Below are positions 1 through 22,908 of a stretch of 36,521 nt of DNA, in pieces; position 1 is the stretch's first letter, and each line of letters starts with the position of its first letter. Source of the DNA: Lonsdalea quercina subsp. quercina (GTDB lineage Bacteria; Pseudomonadota; Gammaproteobacteria; Enterobacterales; Enterobacteriaceae). The position numbers and the translations under genes were made by a program. The DNA lies in NCBI RefSeq assembly GCF_000688695.1, contig NZ_JIBQ01000017.1:23064-59584 (forward strand), written 5' to 3'. Below the pieces are notes generated by a model. The model made no database searches. It was not told the origin of the DNA and was given only the letters and a program-made list of their open reading frames with translations.

Positions 1-1
1 G

Positions 2-622
2 GCGCGCCGCATGATGCAGGCCAGCGTCAAGTTTCTGGGCTACGGCGACGGCTCGCAGCCAAAACGCTCATCGCTGCGCGTTCTGGGCAAAACCAAATTG
101 TATGAACTGATGGTGCTGGACGACGACGATCTGGACCAGTTGGCGGAAGGCGGCACGGTGGCGGGCGCGACGCTCGACGAGATCGACCGCATGACCAGCC
201 GCGAACTGAAGGCCGCCCTGCGCGAATCCCGCGAGAACAGCGCCGCTCAGCAGCGGGTGCTGGCGGATAAAAACAGCAAAATCGACGAGCTGGCCACCCG
301 GCTTGCGAAAAAGTCCCGCATCGCCACTCCCGAACCAGACCCGCAGAGCGCCCAACTGCGGGCCGAAGTCAGCGCCATCGCCTTCGACGCCGAAGCGCAT
401 CTGCTCGGCAAACTGCAGGCCGGTTTCAGCGAGCTGCTCAACAGCCACGACGCCCTGCAGTCGCCGCCGACCGAATTCATGAACGGCCTGCTGTGCCAGC
501 TGGAGCGCGCCATCCATCAGCTGCGCGAGCGCTTCTTCCTGGACGAGGCGCCGAACGCCAGCCTGAAACCGGCCTGGCTCGACGCCCCTGAACCTCGCCT
601 GCCCCACACCGAGACGGTCTGA
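2..622 (+). CDS. Mu-like prophage early protein, 5' end outside the window (partial)
   Basis: The frame is open to the left edge. The first in-frame ATG (11) has no ribosome binding site in the ten bases before it, so the gene most likely starts outside the window. The visible 200-odd residues are hydrophilic: a motif around LGKTKLYELMVL, an acidic stretch (DDDDLDQLAEGG), then a Glu/Arg/Lys-rich stretch (about residues 60-105) that looks like a coiled coil, and a helical C-terminal part. From memory, this layout resembles the early proteins (some DUF3102-like) encoded just upstream of transposase A in Mu-like phages. That is family-level recollection, not something proven here. Its stop (620-622) overlaps the ribosome binding site of the transposase gene, so the two are translationally coupled. 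No enzymatic motif is visible and the function is unknown. Confidence 0.6.
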   Translation, partial: ARRMMQASVKFLGYGDGSQPKRSSLRVLGKTKLYELMVLDDDDLDQLAEGGTVAGATLDEIDRMTSRELKAALRESRENSAAQQRVLADKNSKIDELATRLAKKSRIATPEPDPQSAQLRAEVSAIAFDAEAHLLGKLQAGFSELLNSHDALQSPPTEFMNGLLCQLERAIHQLRERFFLDEAPNASLKPAWLDAPEPRLPHTETV

Positions 623-631
623 GGAGTGATG

Positions 632-2392
632 ATGAACGCCGCCCTGACGGAAAAACTGGTCGCTGTCGCCCGCGCCGCGCGCGAAGCCGGACACGGCAGC
701 CGCGGTCCGATCTACGACGCCGCGTGCGCCGAACTGGGGATGTCCCGCGGGACATTGCTGCGCAAGCTGAAGACCGTGGCGATGCCCCGCCGCCCTCGCA
801 AGCAGCGCAGCGACGCCGGCAACAGCGCCCTGACCCGCGAAGAAGCCGCCCTGCTGGCCGCCACGCTGATGGAAGCCACGCGGAAAAACGGCAAACGCCT
901 GTACGCGATAGCGGATGCGGCGGACACCCTGCGCGCCAACGGCCTGATCGACGCCAGCCGCATGGACCCGGCCACCGGCGAGTGCATCCCGCTGTCCGCC
1001 TCCACGCTGAGCCGCGCGCTGCGCAACTACGGCCTGCATCCAGACCAACTGAGCGCCCCCGCGCCGGTCACCGAACTGGCGAGCCGTCACCCCAACCACG
1101 TCTGGGAAATCGACGCGTCGCTCTGCACGCTCTACTACCTCAGCAACGGCCGCAAAGGGTTGCAGGTGATGGACAGCGCGCGCTTCTACAAAAACAAGCC
1201 CGCCAACCTGGCGCGCATCGCCAGCGACCGGGTGTGGAGCTACGAAATCACCGACCACGCCACCGGCTGGATCTACGTGGAATACGTGATGGGCGCGGAG
1301 TCCGGCGAGAACCTGTGCTCGGTGCTGATCAACGCGATGCAGGCGCGCGGCGGCGCCGACGTCCTGCACGGCGTGCCGAAGATCCTCTACCTCGACCCCG
1401 GCTCCGCCAACACCGCCAGCATGACCCGCAACCTGTGCCAGTCGCTCGGCATTGAGCTGATCGCCCACAAAGCGCACTCGGCCCGCGCCACCGGCCAGGT
1501 TGAGAAAGCGCGCGACATCATCGAACGCAAACTGGAGCCGGGCCTGAAGTTCCAACCGGTCCACAGCCTGGAAGAGTTGAACGCGCTGGCCGCCAAGTGG
1601 CGCAGTCACTTCAACGCCACCGCCATCCACAGCCGCACCGGAATGACCCGCACCGCCGCGTGGCTGAACATCAGCGACAGCGAGCTGGTGAAAGCGCCGT
1701 CGCGCGACGTGTGCCGCGAGCTGGCGGTCTCCTCGCCGGAGACCCGCAAAGTGACGCCGAAACTGCGCGTCTCGTTCCGCGGCGTGGAGTACGACGTGTC
1801 GTCGGTGCCGGACGTCATGGTCGGCCAGACGCTGCGCATCACCCGCAACCCGTGGCGCAGCCGCTGCGCGCAGGTCGTGATGATGGGCGAGGACGGCTAC
1901 GAGCACTACTGGCAGGTCGAAGAGGTCGAGAAGGACGCCTACGGCTTCGCCGCCTCCGCGCCCGTCATCGGCGAGCGTTTCCGCGCGCAGGCCGCCACGC
2001 CCGCGCAGACGGCCAAAGCCGAGCTGGAGCAACGCATCACCGAGACGGAAAACGCGACGGACGCCGCCGATGCCCGCCGCCGCCACGCCCTGCCGTTCGG
2101 CGGACGGCTCGACCCGTACAAGCAGATCGACGACGCCGAGTTGCCGAGCTATCTGCCACGGCGCGGCCAGCCCTCGCCGGTGCGCGCCCCGCGCGTCGAA
2201 CAGCGTCCGCTGAGCCACGTCGAAGCCGCCCGCCTGCTGCGCGAACGCTTCCTGGCCCACGGGCAGGACTGGACCTCGGCGCACTATCGCCAACTGGCCA
2301 ACCGCTATCCCGACGGCGTGCCCATCGAGGCACTGGAGCCGCTGGCCGGCGAGCTGCTTACGCCGCCCGCCCGCATCGTCAACGGGCCTTGA
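632..2392 (+). CDS. Mu-like DDE transposase (transposase A subunit)
   Basis: A 586-residue transposase with an N-terminal helix-turn-helix-like part (residues 1-60, including an LGMSRGTLLRKLK segment), an RNase-H-fold rve/DDE core at about 155-340, and a basic beta-barrel C-terminal part like that of Mu transposases. The likely catalytic triad is D161 (in WEIDAS), D255 (in LYLDPGSAN) and E291 (in ATGQVEKARD); the last two are 36 residues apart, as expected. In this family the protein binds phage ends, cuts at the 3' ends and joins them to target DNA by replicative transposition. ATG 632 is chosen because GAGGAG at 621-626 sits five bases upstream; ATG 629 and GTG 626 are too close to it. It is followed by the AAA+ partner gene. 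The reading frame is intact, so the enzyme may be active. It is closer in look to the BcepMu/Tn552-type A proteins than to classical MuA (impression only). Confidence 0.88.
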   Translation: MNAALTEKLVAVARAAREAGHGSRGPIYDAACAELGMSRGTLLRKLKTVAMPRRPRKQRSDAGNSALTREEAALLAATLMEATRKNGKRLYAIADAADTLRANGLIDASRMDPATGECIPLSASTLSRALRNYGLHPDQLSAPAPVTELASRHPNHVWEIDASLCTLYYLSNGRKGLQVMDSARFYKNKPANLARIASDRVWSYEITDHATGWIYVEYVMGAESGENLCSVLINAMQARGGADVLHGVPKILYLDPGSANTASMTRNLCQSLGIELIAHKAHSARATGQVEKARDIIERKLEPGLKFQPVHSLEELNALAAKWRSHFNATAIHSRTGMTRTAAWLNISDSELVKAPSRDVCRELAVSSPETRKVTPKLRVSFRGVEYDVSSVPDVMVGQTLRITRNPWRSRCAQVVMMGEDGYEHYWQVEEVEKDAYGFAASAPVIGERFRAQAATPAQTAKAELEQRITETENATDAADARRRHALPFGGRLDPYKQIDDAELPSYLPRRGQPSPVRAPRVEQRPLSHVEAARLLRERFLAHGQDWTSAHYRQLANRYPDGVPIEALEPLAGELLTPPARIVNGP

Positions 2393-2599
2393 TCCCTCGG
2401 CGCGACCGCGCCGCAACCTGAACGGGCCGACTCGCTAAGCGGCCCTCCCCGCCGACCCAGAGCGACGCGTCATCGCGCCGCCCAGGGGACGCTCAACCTT
2501 TTTTCGGCGTGACGGCACGTCGCAGAGACAACGCAAGACCGCAAAACGCCCCGACGGCACGCCGTCAGGAAACGATCGCCACGCGTTATGGAGGCAAGG

Positions 2600-3493
2600 A
2601 TGTTATTGAAAAAACAGGTGTTGCACCCCGAGACCCGCAAAGCGTTCGGACTGTTCCGCGACCCGTTTGCGGAAGACGCACTGCTCGGTGCAGAGGACGT
2701 GTTCGTCACGCCCGATATCCGTTATGTGCGGGAAGCGCTGCATCAGACCGCGTGCTACGGCGGTTTTCTGGCGGTGATCGGCGAGTCCGGCGCGGGCAAG
2801 TCCACGCTGCGCCGCGACCTGGTCGACCGTCTGGAGCGCGAGCGCGCCCCGGTCGTCGTCATCGAACCTTACACGCTGGCGATGGAAGACAACGACGTCA
2901 AAGGCAAAACGCTGAAGGCCGCGGGCATCGCCGAGGCGGTGATCAGCACGCTGGCGCCGCTCGAACGCATCAGACGCACTCAGGACGCCCGCTTCCGCCA
3001 GATGCACCGGTTGCTGCGCGACAGCAGCCGCAGCGGATACAGCCATGTGCTGATCATCGAAGAAGCGCACAGCCTGCCGATCCCCACGCTCAAGCATCTC
3101 AAGCGCTTTTTCGAACTGGAGAGCGGCTTCAAAAAACTGCTCTCCATCGTGCTGATCGGCCAGCCGGAGCTGGCGTCGAAGCTCAGCGAGCGCAACCCCG
3201 AGGTGCGCGAAGTGGTGCAGCGCTGTGAAGTGGTCGAACTGCGGCCGCTGGACGGGGCGCTGGCGGACTTTCTCAGCTTCAAACTGGGCCGCGTCGGCAA
3301 AACGCTCGACGAGGTGATCGACGACGGCGCGCTGGACGCCCTCCGCGCCCGACTCAGCTTTCACACGGGCGGCCGTCAGACGGTCAGCCTGCTTTACCCC
3401 CTTGCTATCGGCAACCTGATGATCGCCGCCATGAATCTGGCAGCCAGCATCGGCATCCCCCTCATCAATTCAGACGTCATTAAAGGACTCTAA
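2600..3493 (+). CDS. AAA+ ATPase, transposase B subunit (MuB/TniB/ExeA-like)
   Basis: A 297-residue P-loop ATPase. Walker A is GESGAGKST at residues 61-69 and Walker B is VLIIEEAH at 150-157, followed by a sensor-like IVLIGQPEL segment and a helical C-terminal lid. This is the ExeA/TniB/TnsC-like architecture used by the B subunits of transposable phages, which bind target DNA and stimulate the transposase. ATG 2600 is preferred over 2588 because GGAGG at 2591-2595 lies four bases before it. About 200 bases separate it from the transposase stop, with no extra gene visible in that gap. Its stop lies two bases from the next start, so at least these two genes are one transcription unit. Pairing with an intact A subunit is what supports the transposition role over a secretion-ATPase role. 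Confidence 0.85.
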   Translation: MLLKKQVLHPETRKAFGLFRDPFAEDALLGAEDVFVTPDIRYVREALHQTACYGGFLAVIGESGAGKSTLRRDLVDRLERERAPVVVIEPYTLAMEDNDVKGKTLKAAGIAEAVISTLAPLERIRRTQDARFRQMHRLLRDSSRSGYSHVLIIEEAHSLPIPTLKHLKRFFELESGFKKLLSIVLIGQPELASKLSERNPEVREVVQRCEVVELRPLDGALADFLSFKLGRVGKTLDEVIDDGALDALRARLSFHTGGRQTVSLLYPLAIGNLMIAAMNLAASIGIPLINSDVIKGL

Positions 3494-3495
3494 TC

Positions 3496-3789
3496 ATGGC
3501 CAAAATCATCATCAACATTACGCATAAAAAAGAAACAGCGGCGCGCGGACTGAGCGCGGTGGACCTGTCTTGCGCCGTCACGGCGGAGCTGGAGGACCAC
3601 GAAGAGCAGGTGACGCTGCTGATGACTCAACTGCTGGGCGCCGGGCTGCCGGACCTGATCGAGTCCGCCAACGACCAGTTGGTCATGCTGCTGGAAGACC
3701 AGGGGGTGCGGGTGGCGGAAGCGACCGTCACGCCGCTGGACGACGATACCGCCGCGGCGTCGGACGACACGGGAGGCGCCCGCCCATAA
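3496..3789 (+). CDS. Small phage protein of unknown function
   Basis: A 97-residue acidic protein. It begins two bases after the ATPase stop and has AAAGGA (3482-3487) as a plausible ribosome binding site inside the ATPase gene, so it is co-translated with it. The N-terminus (MAKIIINITHKK) is beta-like, the middle (about residues 20-70) is helical and rich in Leu and Glu, and the last 20 residues are low-complexity Asp/Ala/Thr. I recognise no family or catalytic motif. Its place between the transposition ATPase and the Mor activator suggests an accessory early function, such as modulating transposition or a host process, but that is only positional inference. Confidence 0.6.
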   Translation: MAKIIINITHKKETAARGLSAVDLSCAVTAELEDHEEQVTLLMTQLLGAGLPDLIESANDQLVMLLEDQGVRVAEATVTPLDDDTAAASDDTGGARP

Positions 3790-3795
3790 GACACT

Positions 3796-3815
3796 GACCG
3801 GCGTCCGCGCCGGTC
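3796..3815 (+). terminator. GC-rich hairpin between the small phage gene and mor
   Basis: Perfect 8-bp inverted repeat, GACCGGCG (3796-3803) and CGCCGGTC (3808-3815), with a TCCG loop, starting seven bases after the preceding stop. No T-run follows, so it is not a textbook Rho-independent terminator. It could pause transcription, stabilise the upstream message, or separate mor from the transposition operon. Confidence 0.45.
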
Positions 3816-3886
3816 GCCATCGCTCCGTTAACGGGGAAAATCGTAGTGAAATCAATAATTTTTGACATCAAAAAGAGGAATACATC

Positions 3887-4279
3887 ATGACAAACAGCAA
3901 CAGTTTTCGCAGTAAAGGCCCGGAGCTGCTGGTCGAGCTCGCTCAGCACACTTCCAACATTCTGCACGAGGCCGTCGACATGGACACCCGCACCGCCGAC
4001 CAGATCGGCGAAGCCGTCGCCAGCCGGATGATGCAGGTCTGGGGCGGGCAAAACGTCTACTTCCCGATGGGGATGGCCTGGAGAGTCAGCCAGCGCGACC
4101 AGGAGATCTTCAACGACTTCAACGGCAAAAACCATCACGATCTGGCCCGCAAATACGGCGTTTCGCTGCAGTGGATCTACAGCGTCGTCAAGCGCGTCCG
4201 CAAAGAGGAACAGGCGCGCATACAAGGCTCGCTGTTTGAAGGAGGCGCCGCCAGAGACAGCACCGCCGACGACGACTGA
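3887..4279 (+). CDS. Mor-family transcriptional activator (Mu middle-operon regulator type)
   Basis: A 130-residue protein of the Mor/C family. Residues 35-70 form the helical dimerisation part ending in the typical GGQNVYFPMG segment. Residues 70-106 (RDQEIFNDFNGKN, then HDLARKYGVSLQWIYSVVKR) form the C-terminal helix-turn-helix. In Mu, Mor dimers activate the middle promoter with host RNA polymerase. AGAGGA at 3874-3879 is a good ribosome binding site seven bases before ATG 3887. The gene sits behind a hairpin and a short AT-rich leader, so it may have its own promoter. A strong terminator follows at once, and no middle or late phage genes lie downstream, which is unlike Mu itself. The target promoter must therefore be elsewhere in the element (left of the window) or lost. 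Confidence 0.85.
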   Translation: MTNSNSFRSKGPELLVELAQHTSNILHEAVDMDTRTADQIGEAVASRMMQVWGGQNVYFPMGMAWRVSQRDQEIFNDFNGKNHHDLARKYGVSLQWIYSVVKRVRKEEQARIQGSLFEGGAARDSTADDD

Positions 4280-4282
4280 TCT

Positions 4283-4325
4283 CCCCGCCTGGACCGCACT
4301 CCCCCGCCGGTCCGGGCGGGGTTTG
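4283..4325 (+). terminator. Rho-independent terminator after mor
   Basis: A 14-bp stem, CCCCGCCTGGACCG (4283-4296) against 4308-4321, with one T-G wobble and an 11-base loop, followed by TTTGT. It begins three bases after the mor stop and closes the rightward prophage operon. Confidence 0.8.
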
Positions 4326-4383
4326 TCCCATCAAGACGCCTCGCCTGGCACCGCTCAAAACCGCCTCACGTCTCGCTCACCGC

Positions 4384-4471
4384 TTTCGCTGCTTCACTGA
4401 TTCGCTAATTCACTGATTCACTGATTCACTGATTCACTGCTTCGCTATTTGGCTATTTGGCTATTTGGCTA
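4384..4471. repeat. Degenerate tandem octamer array
   Basis: Eleven consecutive 8-base units in unbroken phase: TTTCGCTG, CTTCACTG, ATTCGCTA, four exact ATTCACTG (4408-4439), CTTCGCTA, and three exact TTTGGCTA (4448-4471). The consensus is roughly HTTYRCTR (H being A, C or T), with G replacing Y in the last three units. A period of eight is not compatible with coding. Two sub-blocks of identical units suggest local slippage of an older degenerate array. Function unknown; it lies about 60 bases beyond the prophage terminator. Confidence 0.8.
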
Positions 4472-4529
4472 ATCCGATGCTCCCTCCAACGCCGCAACGC
4501 CATCACTTCAATACCCCTCCCACCCACCG

Positions 4530-4550
4530 TTGGGGGCATTCAACCCCCAA
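4530..4550. other. Small GC hairpin upstream of the G-rich repeat
   Basis: TTGGGGG (4530-4536) and CCCCCAA (4544-4550) form a perfect 7-bp stem with loop CATTCAA. It lies between a C-rich segment (4514-4528) and the G-rich octamer repeat. No gene is linked to it. Confidence 0.4.
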
Positions 4551-4562
4551 GGTCTGAGGACA

Positions 4563-4594
4563 TGGTGGGTTGGTGGGTTGGTGGGTTGGTGGGT
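4563..4594 (+). repeat. Four exact copies of the octamer TGGTGGGT; potential G-quadruplex
   Basis: Units at 4563-4570, 4571-4578, 4579-4586 and 4587-4594 are identical. They give four GGG tracts separated by five-base loops, which fits the usual G-quadruplex pattern on the plus strand. The period is again eight. The complementary C-rich segment at about 4514-4528 could alternatively pair with it as a hairpin. Confidence 0.75.
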
Positions 4595-4608
4595 TGATAA
4601 CGCCGCCA

Positions 4609-4916
4609 GCCACCGCGTCTGGCTTGAAAGCCCCCGCAGAACTCGCCGAAAGTGAATGCTTCACGGAGGAAACTCCGGCTGACGGGGCATCAGCCACCGC
4701 GCCTGGCCTGAAAGCCCCCGCTGAACTCGCCGAAAGTGAATGCATCACGGAGGTAACTCCGGCTGACGGGGCATCAGCCACCGCGCCTGGCCTGAAAGCG
4801 CCCGCAGAACTCGCCGAAAGTGAATGCATCACGGAGGTAACTCCGGCTGACGGGGCATCAGCCACCGCGCCTGGCCTGAAAGCCCCCGCTGAACTCGCCG
4901 AAAGTGAATGCATCAC
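4609..4916. repeat. 84-bp tandem repeat, 3.7 copies
   Basis: Units start at 4609, 4693, 4777 and 4861 (the last is cut at 56 bases). They are identical but for a few substitutions, for example in unit 1 at 4618 and 4624. Because 84 is 28 codons, long open frames exist on both strands through the array, encoding 28-residue repeats (plus strand around ECITEVTPADGAS, minus strand around SLSASSAGAFRPG). Neither frame has a convincing ribosome binding site. The open frames are probably a by-product of the repeat length, although a repeat protein cannot be fully excluded. The substitutions are about half silent in the plus frame, too few to decide. Confidence 0.8.
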
Positions 4917-5023
4917 ATAATCGGCGGCAGATTCCCAAAGGGCCATCGCGGCCCGGCAATAAAAGGAGAAACAGGGTTGAGAAAGCCGATCCGCCCCCTA
5001 CAGAGGCGCTTAAAATCGCGCTC

Positions 5024-5050
5024 AAAAAATGACGGCTGTTGCCGTTTTTT
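5024..5050. terminator. Small terminator-like hairpin
   Basis: ACGGC (5032-5036), loop TGTT, GCCGT (5041-5045), flanked by six A on the left and followed by a T-run through 5050. The shape fits a short bidirectional Rho-independent terminator. No well-supported gene feeds into it from either side, so it may be the relic of a lost gene. Confidence 0.4.
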
Positions 5051-5232
5051 CACAGATGGATTGCCGCGTAGGATTGGCCGCTGCAGAGTGGACTCCACGG
5101 TCCTCTGACCTGTTGCAATTCGTCGAGAATCTCTATTTCCCGTATAATACGACGCGTCGCTTCGCGGCTATTCGCTGAATAAAGCTTTCCCACTTCGATC
5201 GCACGGCCTTTATGGCTATCCTCTATTTCCAC
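5050..5232 (-). CDS. Possible small protein or gene fragment, unrecognised
   Basis: An open frame of 60 residues starting at GTG 5232. The first 43 residues look protein-like: charged and amphipathic, rich in Glu, Arg and Ile, around LYSANSREATRRIIREIEIL. The tail after residue 45 looks random. There is no clear ribosome binding site. It could be the remnant of a truncated gene at the junction between repeat island and AT-rich spacer. No family recognised. Confidence 0.2.
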   Translation of the reverse strand: MEIEDSHKGRAIEVGKLYSANSREATRRIIREIEILDELQQVRGPWSPLCSGQSYAAIHL

Positions 5233-5239
5233 TCAGCCA

Positions 5240-5860
5240 GCCCCGGCGCTAAGCGATCAAAAAATAAAAATACTGATAGGACCAGTTCCCACAGCGACGC
5301 TGAATACCTCGTCGACCGAAAAATAAAGAATGCAAAAAAATAAACAGGCAACGCGCTTTTATCAAAAAACAGACAAAATACTAACGAAATAGTTAGTCAA
5401 AAAAAGAGGAAATAAACCCGAAATTATTCTGTACCTATCCGTATTATCAACCAGCAATCAATAATAATAAAAAATTCATCTTTCCTTTTCGTGCGGATAA
5501 TTATTCAAATTCATTTCTTTTTTCACATAGCAAAAAAATGTTTCATCCCCCCGAGTTTCCCATTCCTGCCCTCGCATTCTCGAATCTCATTATCTCTCTT
5601 TTCCGATGGGGATTATATTGGTGGGGATCAATAGGATATATCCATAAATACCACGCAGAAAATAAACACAGAATTGAACAGAAAACGGACGTTACTGAGA
5701 CGTTATTTTTTCGACGCGCGTTGAAGATAAAAAATATCTCCAGAGCAAAAAGTCAGCGATGAAAAATATTAGCGAGGAAGAGCGCTAATTGATAAATAGG
5801 CATATTGGGTAGGAGGGTAATAATTTATGGGGTTACTACTATTGATCTGCGTCTGAGAAA
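5240..5860. other. AT-rich intergenic spacer
   Basis: About 600 bases between the repeat island and the cysA terminator that are far richer in A and T than anything else in the window, with many A and T runs. It contains a 6-bp inverted repeat (ACTAAC 5380-5385, GTTAGT 5392-5397) and one doubtful small open frame. No RNA gene or clear promoter was recognised. Such DNA in enterobacteria is often horizontally acquired and silenced by H-NS; this is inference from composition only. Confidence 0.5.
5538..5762 (+). CDS. Doubtful small hydrophobic protein
   Basis: A 74-residue open frame with one hydrophobic stretch (about residues 10-35, Phe/Trp/Leu/Ile-rich) and a basic C-terminus. It lies in AT-rich DNA, has no good ribosome binding site (AGCAAAAAA precedes ATG 5538) and resembles no family I know. 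It could be a small membrane protein, but chance is as likely. Confidence 0.2.
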   Translation: MFHPPEFPIPALAFSNLIISLFRWGLYWWGSIGYIHKYHAENKHRIEQKTDVTETLFFRRALKIKNISRAKSQR

Positions 5861-5864
5861 TAAC

Positions 5865-5897
5865 ATGACCCGGCTTTGCTTATCGACGCCGGGTCAT
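5865..5897 (-). terminator. Hairpin terminator after cysA
   Basis: Perfect 10-bp inverted repeat, ATGACCCGGC (5865-5874) and GCCGGGTCAT (5888-5897), located ten bases past the cysA stop. On the minus strand it is followed by GTTATTTCTC, a weak T-run. It closes the sulfate operon. Confidence 0.7.
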
Positions 5898-5907
5898 TCG
5901 AAAGAAG

Positions 5908-6900
5908 TTAAATTTCCCAGTCGTGGTTGTAGGTTTTAGGTTTAAATTGAATGATGTCGCCCCGATGTAGCCCGGAGAGCGTGTTGTCGTCATGCGCCAC
6001 TTCAGCTTCAATCAGCTCGGGATTCCCCTCCATCTGCAACGTTAAACGCGTTAACGCCCCCAAAGGACGGATATCTTTGACGGCAACCGGCTGGTAGTCC
6101 GGCTGCGGATCTTTCGACAACACCACTTCATGCGGACGGAACAAGATCGATTTGTCGGATTCAGACAACGTCAGGCGGTTGCTATCGCCGAGGAAATGGT
6201 ACACAAACTCGCTGGCGGGATGGTTGTAGACCTCGTGGGGCGTCCCAATCTGCTCAATCACGCCTTTGTTCATCAGCACGATTCGATCGGCCACTTCCAT
6301 CGCCTCTTCCTGATCGTGAGTCACGAAAACCGACGTCAAGTTGATATTCTCGTGTAGGCGTGACAACCAGCGACGCAGCTCTTTACGTACTTTCGCATCC
6401 AGCGCCCCGAAAGGTTCATCCAGCAGGAGGATGCGCGGCTCGACGATCAGCGCTCGGGCAAGTGCAATACGTTGGCGCTGACCGCCAGAAAGCTGCTCCG
6501 GATATCGGTCCGCCAGCCAGTCTAATTGCACCATGTTCAGCAACTCATGCACTTTGGTTTCAATGTCGCGTTTGGACGGGCGAATCGCTTTCGGCTTCAT
6601 CCGCAAGCCAAAAGCAACGTTATCGAAGACCGTCATGTGGCGGAACAATGCGTAGTGCTGAAAGACGAAGCCCACGTTGCGATCGCGTACGTCATGTACC
6701 GAAACGTCCTCGCCATGGAACACAATATTGCCGCTGTCCGGCTGCTCCAGTCCGGCGATGATCCGCAGAAGGGTCGTCTTGCCGCAGCCCGACGGCCCCA
6801 ACAAGGCCACCAGCTCGCCGCTTTGAATGGACAGATTGATGTTATCCAGCGCCCTAAACTGACCAAATTGCTTGTTAACGTTATGGACTTCAATGCTCAT
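5908..6900 (-). CDS. cysA: Sulfate/thiosulfate ABC transporter ATPase CysA
   Basis: Cytoplasmic ATPase that drives sulfate import with CysT and CysW. Walker A is GPSGCGKTT (residues 35-43), the signature LSGGQ is at 137-141, and Walker B ILLLDEP at 157-163, followed by the H-loop region ([15 protein letters not shown]). The protein has 330 residues; the E. coli protein is about 365. The difference lies in the C-terminal regulatory domain, where the segment after FLGDSNRL is compact. The NTPase domain is complete, so the protein should work. The start lies inside the end of cysW (11-base overlap), showing translational coupling. It is last in the sbp-cysT-cysW-cysA operon. The related phosphonate or molybdate ATPases are unlikely given the neighbours. 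Confidence 0.92.
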
Positions 6901-20421: not shown

Positions 20422-22908
20422 TTACTGCCCGAACATCTCTTTGATCCAGCCGGCGACGCCCTGTCCGTCTTTCTGCTCGTCTTGCTGTCCACCCTGCTGG
20501 TCTTCCTGCGGTTGCACCGTCTGAGGCGCAGATTGGCACAGGGACTGCGGGTTATCGCTCCAGACCGGCAGCACGCGGCCCGCGCTGCCGTTGCAGATGA
20601 CATTGCCGTTGCCGTCGACCGTCATCGTGCTGATGCCTTCCGGCGGCGTCAGCGTTAACGCCAGCGGCGTCTGGTTTTCCAGATAACGGCGGTAGAGCGT
20701 CAGCGCGCCGTTGGCGCCGGTCAGCTTGGCAGGGCCATTATTGTCTCGACCCACCCAGGCGATTGCCACTTCCTTGCCGTCCACGCCGGCGAACCAGCTG
20801 TCGCGCAGGTCGTTGGTCGTCCCGGTTTTCGCCGCCAGGTGATAGCGTCCGAATTTCACCGTCAGCGAGCGGGACGTCCCGCGTTCAACCACCTGCTGCA
20901 TACCGTACAGCGTCAGATAGGCTGCCTGAGCCGGTACGGCGCGTTCCGCCTGAGGGAAGCTCTGATACAGCACCGTATTGTCTTCCGCGATCACGGAGCG
21001 TACCGCCGACAGCGGGGCTCGATTGCCGCCGCTGGCAATAGTCTGGTACTCCTGCGCGACTTCCATCGGCGTCAGGCTGATCGCCCCCAGCAGCATGGAC
21101 GGCACGGGCTGGATCACCTCTTTGGGGATCCCCAATCGCTGCAGCGTGGCGCTGACCTGATCCAGCCCAACCGCCATCCCCAGATTCACCGTCGGGACGT
21201 TCAGGGAGTTAGCAAGCGCATCCACCAACAGTACCTGACCGCGGAACTGGCGATCGTAGTTCTTCGGCTCCCATATCGCGCCGTTCGGCTGTTTCAGCGA
21301 CAGCGGCGCATCCGACAGCACCGTATTAAGGCGATAGTGATCGGGATCGCTGAGGGCTGTCAGATAGGTCGCGGGTTTCGCCAGCGAGCCGACCGAACGA
21401 CGCGCCTGCAGCGCGCGGTTGAAACCGGCGAATTGGGTGTCGGCGCCGCCTACCATCGCGCGGATTTCTCCGCTGAAACGGTCGACGATCACCATCGCCG
21501 CCTCCAGATCGCCGACGTTGCGCGCGGCACGCAGCGCAGGAACGCCCGTTTCCACTGCGCGTTCGGCGGCATCCTGCGATACCGGGTCAAGCGTGGTGAA
21601 GATCTTCACGCCGGACAGGTCGTTGACCTTGTCGCCAAGCCGCTGCTGCAACTCCTGACGCACCATCTGCATAAACGCGGGTTGCGGGCTGATCACGCCG
21701 CCTTTGGGCTGGACGCCCAGCGGACGCGCGCTCAGCATGTTATAGAGATCTTCGTCGATCACCTGCTGATTTTGCAGCAGACGCAGCACCAGATTGCGGC
21801 GCTCCAGCGTCAGTTTCGGGTTACGCCACGGATTGTACAGCGAGGCGCCTTTGACCATACCGACCAGCATCGCCTGCTGATCGAGGCTCAGCTCGTTCAC
21901 CGGACGCCCGAAGTAGTAGAGGCTGGCCAGCGGGAAACCGCGGATCTGATCGCTGCCGCTCTGACCGAGATACACCTCGTTCAGATACAGTTCCAGAATC
22001 CGATCCTTGCTGTAGCGCGCGTCCACGATCAGCGCCATATAGGCTTCATTGAGCTTACGCCACAGCGAACGCTCGTTGGTGAGGAACATGTTTTTCACCA
22101 ACTGCTGCGTCAACGTACTACCGCCCTGCACCGCGCGTCCTGCGGTCAGGTTGGCCAGCACGGCTCGGCCGATGGAAAACAGACTGATGCCGTCATGCTC
22201 GTAGAAATGACGGTCTTCGGTCGCGATCAACGTATCCACCAGCAGATCGGGGAACCCTGCCCGAGGAACGAACAGACGCTGTTCGCCGTTCGGCGATTGC
22301 AGCATGGTGATCAGTTTGGGATCGAGCCTGAAGAAACCGAAGCTGCGCTGGTTATCCAGATTCTGGATCTGCGACAGACGATCGTTATTGAACACCAGAC
22401 GGGCGCGGATCTGGCCCTCTTTGCCATCGGGGAAGTCGAACGGACGACGCAGCATTTCGATGCTGTTGGCCTGCACCGTAAACTCGCCGGGGCGGGTCAT
22501 CCGGGTGACTTCGCGATACTGCATCCCTTCCAGCAGATGCACCATTTCCTGCTTGCTGTAGGACATGCCGGGTTCAAGGTTCACCATCCGGCCGTAAACC
22601 GTCGCCGGGAGCTGCCAGACCTTGCCGTCGATGCGGCTGCGGATTTCGCTGTCCAGATAGATGCCGTAGACCGCCATGACGACCACGAACACCAGCAGCA
22701 GTTTTAGCGCTAGCCCCAGCCAGCGGCGCTTTTTGCCAGGCTTGCGGCTCATCTCTTCGTCGTCCTCGTCATCATAATCATCGTCATACTCTTCGTAATC
22801 ATCATCATAGTCATCGTCATCCCTGCGACGCCTTACCACCTGTTTACGTGTAGGTTTTCGCGGCGCTTTTCCCTTGCGCCCGATAGGTTCGCGATCGTCC
22901 CGAGCCAT
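20422..22908 (-). CDS. mrcB: Bifunctional penicillin-binding protein 1b
   Basis: Class A PBP that polymerises and cross-links peptidoglycan at the inner membrane. It has 828 residues: a basic and Asp/Glu-rich cytoplasmic tail (29-52), a membrane anchor (about 63-84), a UB2H domain (about 100-190, docking site for LpoB), a GT51 glycosyltransferase with catalytic E231 ([12 protein letters not shown]), and a transpeptidase with SLAK (508-511, nucleophile S508), SLN (568-570) and KTG (694-696). Met53 sits where E. coli starts its short PBP1b form at Met46, so two forms may be made here too. The C-terminus ends in a Gln/Asp-rich tail. It lies downstream of hrpB on the same strand, with 100 bases between them. 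Confidence 0.95.

Follow-up and report, generated by a model that had tools for sequence, protein, structure and literature searches.

A headless phage locus inherited in Lonsdalea, very probably an R-type tailocin, keeps the transposase arm of a KP12/BcepMu-like phage

In phage Mu, after whose genes the functions of A, B and Mor are named, the late genes are located downstream of mor. Mor of Mu switches on a middle promoter (PMC4390567). The early arm of Pseudomonas phage B3 (Beetrevirus) is reversed compared to Mu and is read outward. In B3, the Klebsiella phage KP12 (OM835952, a fragment) and the Escherichia phage PhiKM (filed as Bcepmuvirus, PQ738613), A-B-...-mor points to one phage end and is separated by the repressor from the genes for lysis and structure. 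This bears out the initial annotation of the DNA studied here in its view that BcepMu-type early blocks are read toward one phage end. KP12, PhiKM and three KP12-like prophages of E. coli (NZ_CP183117, NZ_OZ547223, NZ_CP020835) carry terminase, portal, head morphogenesis, protease and capsid genes between gp26 and gp37, an interval of about 11 genes in KP12 and the E. coli prophages. Contractile tails of such origin also occur without a head: the R-type tailocin of Pseudomonas syringae is described as Mu-derived in PMC12090994, which cites Hockett 2015 for this. The tailocin BceTMilo keeps int, a CI-like repressor and the late activator Ogr (PMC5411513).

We analysed a window of 36,521 nucleotides from Lonsdalea quercina subsp. 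quercina (contig C17, positions 23064-59584) and read its left neighbourhood, the preceding 23 kb, to the contig end. Open reading frames and family searches gave the gene order end of a DUF3102-type gene, A, B, a 97-aa ORF, mor and a terminator (Table 1). Gene order and sequence identity (A 73%, B about 75%, Mor about 72%, sheath 79%) resemble KP12, PhiKM and the E. coli prophages, as does an early arm read toward one end. The best phage matches of A were KP12, PhiKM and Phi06_2974 B (73%), followed by B3 and its relatives (about 54%). The catalytic residues D163 (1112-1114), D257 (1394-1396) and E293 (1502-1504) of A are invariant in all 16 of the 16 homologues compared, and the DUF3102 ORF shares 57-58% with the KP12 DUF3102 protein over aa 1-297. 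No family match was obtained for the 97-aa ORF in the family searches. Thus a DDE transposase is followed by an AAA ATPase in an outward early arm ending in mor, as in KP12/BcepMu-like phages, although B is truncated: it comprises 301 aa vs 384-388 aa in relatives. Its N-terminal domain is missing from all Lonsdalea copies compared, and alignment to KP12 B revealed that homology to this domain is gone from the spacer behind A. Full transposition is doubtful with a B protein lacking its N-terminus. The genes A, B, small protein and mor had initially been listed as intact; their order holds, B is not intact, and the DUF3102 ORF has to be added to the block.

Table 1 Features of the Lonsdalea locus (window positions unless a contig is given)
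Feature	Position	Strand	Remarks
177-aa predicted membrane protein	contig C17 21144-21677 (L009:5145-5678)	-	adjoins repressor
cI-like repressor	contig 21696-22118	opposite to early arm	
DUF3102-type early gene, C-terminal part	2..622	+	phrog_1748, 1.9e-68; gene start at about contig 22771, upstream of window
Transposase A, 588 aa	626..2392	+	rve domain; phrog_310 'transposase', 5e-129
A-B spacer	2393..2587	.	place of the missing N-terminal ~88 aa of B, by alignment to KP12 B
Truncated B ATPase (AAA), 301 aa	2588..3493	+	Pfam AAA_22, 2.6e-20; phrog_296, 2e-65
97-aa protein	3496..3789	+	37% to the protein at the equivalent place of a Dickeya oryzae prophage
Mor transcription activator, 130 aa	3887..4279	+	Pfam Mor, 6.3e-43
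Intrinsic terminator closing the early operon	4283..4322	+	kept in 5 species
Tandem-repeat spacer, varies between species	4385..4916	.	no recognisable phage end by local alignment
cysA, first recognised chromosomal gene rightward	5908..6900	-	adjoins tRNA-Lys in element-free Brenneria

To the right of mor there are no middle or late phage genes of the kind that lie beyond mor in the classical Mu layout. Instead, and as the initial annotation had recognised, a terminator (fold of 4276-4330: -33.3 kcal/mol, z -5.2) is followed by repeats and then by chromosome, where we identified cysA-W-T-P. The repeats comprise 8-bp arrays (4385-4471 and 4563-4596) and 3.7 copies of an 84-bp tandem repeat (4607-4916), which has open frames of 116 and 147 aa on its two strands and was as such not found in the other Lonsdalea copies. 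The following block of about 1 kb (4921-5907) is mostly non-coding, is conserved before cysA in all five Lonsdalea genomes and was not seen at the empty site in Brenneria described below. It contains a 60-aa ORF (5050-5232, - strand) without a family match.

Going left from the window, an IclR-like regulator is followed by the cI-like repressor and, further left, by the 177-aa predicted membrane protein, a lysis cassette of holin, transglycosylase and Rz-like spanin, as is typical for R-type tailocins, and two small genes. About 0.8 kb without head genes separate these from a contractile-tail and baseplate set that is complete: gp37, sheath, tube, tape measure, U, X, D, V, W, J, I and fibres. 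The initial suggestion of a BcepMu-like prophage on the left was correct as regards lysis and tail genes, but genes for terminase, portal, protease and capsid are all absent. In L. quercina a 2-kb fibre segment flanked by 25-nt perfect inverted repeats lies beside an intact serine-invertase ORF. The contig of the window ends on the left with an inverted fibre/chaperone pair, inside a 164-nt inverted copy; in this genome the left end of the element is unassembled, with contig breaks at the fibre repeat and the tRNA. Upstream of the holin gene, tandem repeats with KGDTRDTGSISSRP units are read through as an ORF (L008:19159-20000, +), and this region differs in sequence between Lonsdalea species. 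The predicted 177-aa membrane protein is very strongly conserved, with dN/dS values of 0.03-0.06 that extend to the L. populi remnant (see below), and has a 65% homologue in a headless locus of Brenneria alni; no homologue was found in the headed loci compared or the phage collection, and it has no confident Pfam or NCBIfam family.

The head module that is absent falls into the interval between gp26 and gp37. KP12 head proteins used as queries gave zero matches in the Lonsdalea loci, and KP12 portal and capsid gave zero matches anywhere in the five Lonsdalea genomes. The same portal query matched a Brenneria prophage that has a head at 79% identity and also picked up a 29-residue fossil in B. 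izbisi. The KP12-type phages and prophages thus differ from the Lonsdalea locus in their full head module, full-length B, about seven more early genes and intact TGAT...ATCA ends with 6-bp duplications.

Five genomes of Lonsdalea, a genus of tree pathogens, were compared, including L. quercina ATCC 29281, L. iberica LMG 26264, L. britannica LMG 26267 and, as the fifth, a complete genome that we infer to be L. populi N-5-1. Each genome has one copy of the element at one site, between tRNA-Lys and cysA. On its right are cysAWTP in all five; on its left, L. quercina and L. populi have tRNA-Lys/gltX. Four species share the same headless locus with tail, A, B and Mor, while L. populi has kept only a remnant (G003:C1:2775400-2783000) that has lost tail and lysozyme and in which A is internally deleted. 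In two Brenneria genomes cysA adjoins tRNA-Lys and the element is absent. The comparison with strains lacking the element, which had been proposed as a check, hence revealed an empty site, but its intergenic DNA is too diverged for base-exact boundaries. A fixed chromosomal site, inheritance and purifying selection on the tail genes are what is expected of an R-type tailocin. Of the two observations named beforehand as contrary to the initial reading, vertical inheritance is found within the genus, and absence of structural genes on the left is not.

Three E. coli insertions define the ends of the KP12 group (left TGATGCGCCGCGCGATAAATG..., right ...CTCACGTCTAATCA), and their target duplications (CTCAAC, CGCTGG, TCATGA) have 6 bp and not the 5 bp anticipated. 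By local alignment no phage end was detected right of mor in five Lonsdalea species, nor left of the invertase gene in either L. quercina or the remnant of L. populi. A pair of A-site-like AGATAAATGG sequences is likewise missing at the edges of the Lonsdalea element. The same alignment found the ends of the headless loci of B. alni and B. izbisi, and these Brenneria ends score strongly. A TG...CA end had been predicted between 4325 and 5240; none is recognisable between mor and cysA. The block indeed runs outward, as originally proposed, but the right boundary of the element cannot be fixed at base resolution. A fossil right end at 4379 (TGAGCGAGACGTGAG), KP12-like by eye, scored no better than other positions or shuffled sequences. 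The best scores in the right flank, about 1.3 kb past mor and beside cysA, differ between species and were for this reason not called ends. An altered A could use sites beyond recognition by the known ends. The spacer beyond the terminator is not conserved between Lonsdalea species.

Headless relatives were also found in B. alni and B. izbisi. Their sites differ from that in Lonsdalea and, judged by the flanking ORFs, are close to yebY/ftnA and to the rbs operon. Both kept A, full-length B and Mor, and most other early genes are gone; their left ends are recognisable and their right termini mutated. A third Brenneria carries a headed phage with both ends recognisable and a sheath 96% identical to that of B. 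alni. The B. alni strain with the headless locus harbours, on contig 20 (L075), a second, more distant prophage of the group with terminase genes (A 63%). A single origin of all headless loci was considered and rejected, since junctions and sites differ and the headless copies form no single clade; at least two separate head losses are forced by the tree calculated from the A sequences. At the deletion junction the promoter runs straight into gp37 in B. alni, short portal and protease fossils are left in B. izbisi, and Lonsdalea has a divergent stub. All three headless lineages have retained, ahead of gp37, a promoter-like core CTAAA...TTAAAAGCC. KP12 has the counterpart of TTAAAAGCC in the stretch between G31 and its protease gene. 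The holin gene is preceded by a related core, which reads TTTAAAATCC or, in Lonsdalea, TTTACAATCAC. Retention of the core through head deletions fits selection for expression of headless tails.

Pairwise dN/dS among four Lonsdalea species, with the L. populi remnant treated apart, indicated purifying selection on tail, lysis and early genes (A 0.09-0.15, B 0.06-0.12, Mor 0.06-0.11, sheath 0.01-0.06, tube 0-0.08). Within A, the DDE core has 2.1 variable residues per 100 aa compared to 7.1, 8.7 and 15.7 in the remaining parts. Across the four species tail genes, A, B and mor are free of stops and frameshifts except in L. britannica, where the frameshift in B is likely an assembly error, as cysA and cysW are frameshifted as well. 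Polarity on mor would explain the lack of stops in A, but not the amino-acid constraint focused on its core. Relative to the differences among headed phages, divergence on the Lonsdalea stem is about twofold for A and threefold for B, and about 1.0-1.6 by the same measure for IclR, holin, Mor and lysozyme. These values point to a shift of A and B on the stem, after which constraint was renewed. In L. populi, B has 27 nonsynonymous and 17 synonymous private changes vs 8:32 in the other species (Fisher p 1.5e-4), so that B appears relaxed where tail and A are lost. The L. populi repressor showed no relaxation like that of B.

The locus is, judged by its sequence, very probably an inherited R-type tailocin, and we consider it likely that the block in the window is the regulatory and early arm of this headless locus, derived from a KP12/BcepMu-like transposable phage. 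Mor dependence, inducibility and killing would follow by analogy with Mu (PMC4390567) and known tailocins (PMC5411513, PMC12090994). A stress signal would relieve the cI-like repressor, and the early operon (IclR-like regulator, DUF3102, A, truncated B, 97-aa protein, Mor) would be transcribed outward to the terminator. Mor would then switch on two late promoters of the opposite strand, which precede the holin gene and gp37/sheath. Expression of the lysis and contractile-tail genes would follow, headless tails would assemble with fibres switched by the DNA invertase, and the cell would lyse and release the tails. During induction A might, in a role that we put forward with reserve, serve the locus or act on it as a DDE enzyme, e.g. 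by template amplification or breakage in the doomed cell; such a role would not be one in the spread of the element.

Lost ends, a truncated B and the largely deleted L. populi copy would suit a decaying defective prophage without present function, whose tail genes and A are just not yet degraded. This is unlikely, as dN/dS of tail genes, A, B and mor is well below 0.3 across four species, where neutral decay would approach about 1, and stops and frameshifts are absent outside L. britannica. That a functional BcepMu-like prophage lies left of the window, as the orientation of the early arm and the KP12-like lysis and tail genes might suggest, has a negligible probability: none of the five species has the head and packaging genes of the phage, the site is identical in all, and on this gene content the reading appears already refuted unless a helper supplies the head.

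A transposition module that the host retains in its own right would account for purifying selection on A, B and mor and for the lack of any recognisable end. It is nevertheless very unlikely, as the module sits with an intact and strongly constrained tail and lysis set and as loss of the tail in L. populi came with deletion of A and relaxation of B, which ties the fate of the early arm to the tailocin. Highly improbable is also a headless transposon that is still mobile within or between cells, e.g. through a helper phage, and has retained A in order to spread. The relatives at other sites in B. alni and B. izbisi with recognisable left ends and a possibly changed site preference of A speak for it. 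On the other hand, each Lonsdalea genome has one copy at one site, no ends were found there by a test that detects them in Brenneria, the right termini in Brenneria are mutated, the Lonsdalea spacer behind mor is not conserved, and the headless copies do not form one clade. The initial alternative of a BcepMu-like prophage to the left or a stripped module was thus sound in its orientation logic; neither fits exactly a headless, apparently immobile tailocin locus.

Within the tailocin interpretation, the DDE transposase may have been co-opted into tailocin production in parallel in Lonsdalea and Brenneria, no longer moving the element and with its catalytic core kept first. We offer this only tentatively; induction would then need the DNA breakage and joining or the replication activity of A. 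Should A be necessary, this would demonstrate that killing devices can domesticate a transposase as a component, and dependence of tail yield on transposase-driven copying of the locus becomes testable.

Tailocins are usually described as tails, lysis genes and regulators. Here, related transposable phages were decapitated at least twice, each time sparing the promoter before the tail genes together with A, B and Mor. In the literature searched we found no earlier report of this tailocin from Lonsdalea or Brenneria. B3 resembles the Lonsdalea locus in A (54% identical) and its outward early arm, but is a complete phage with a head module and with tail genes that are largely of other types according to the annotation of its record; compared to Mu, Lonsdalea has nothing after mor. 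The P. syringae R-type tailocin likewise combines a Mu-type contractile tail with the lack of a head, and we know of no retained transposase block in it. BceTMilo (PMC5411513) and the tailocin of Dickeya dadantii 3937 (PMC10719855) likewise arose when a temperate myophage lost its head, but unlike the Lonsdalea locus they are P2-type and have a tyrosine integrase rather than a DDE transposase. Mu-derived tailocins are already known; the unusual part is a DDE transposase under selection in an apparently immobile one.
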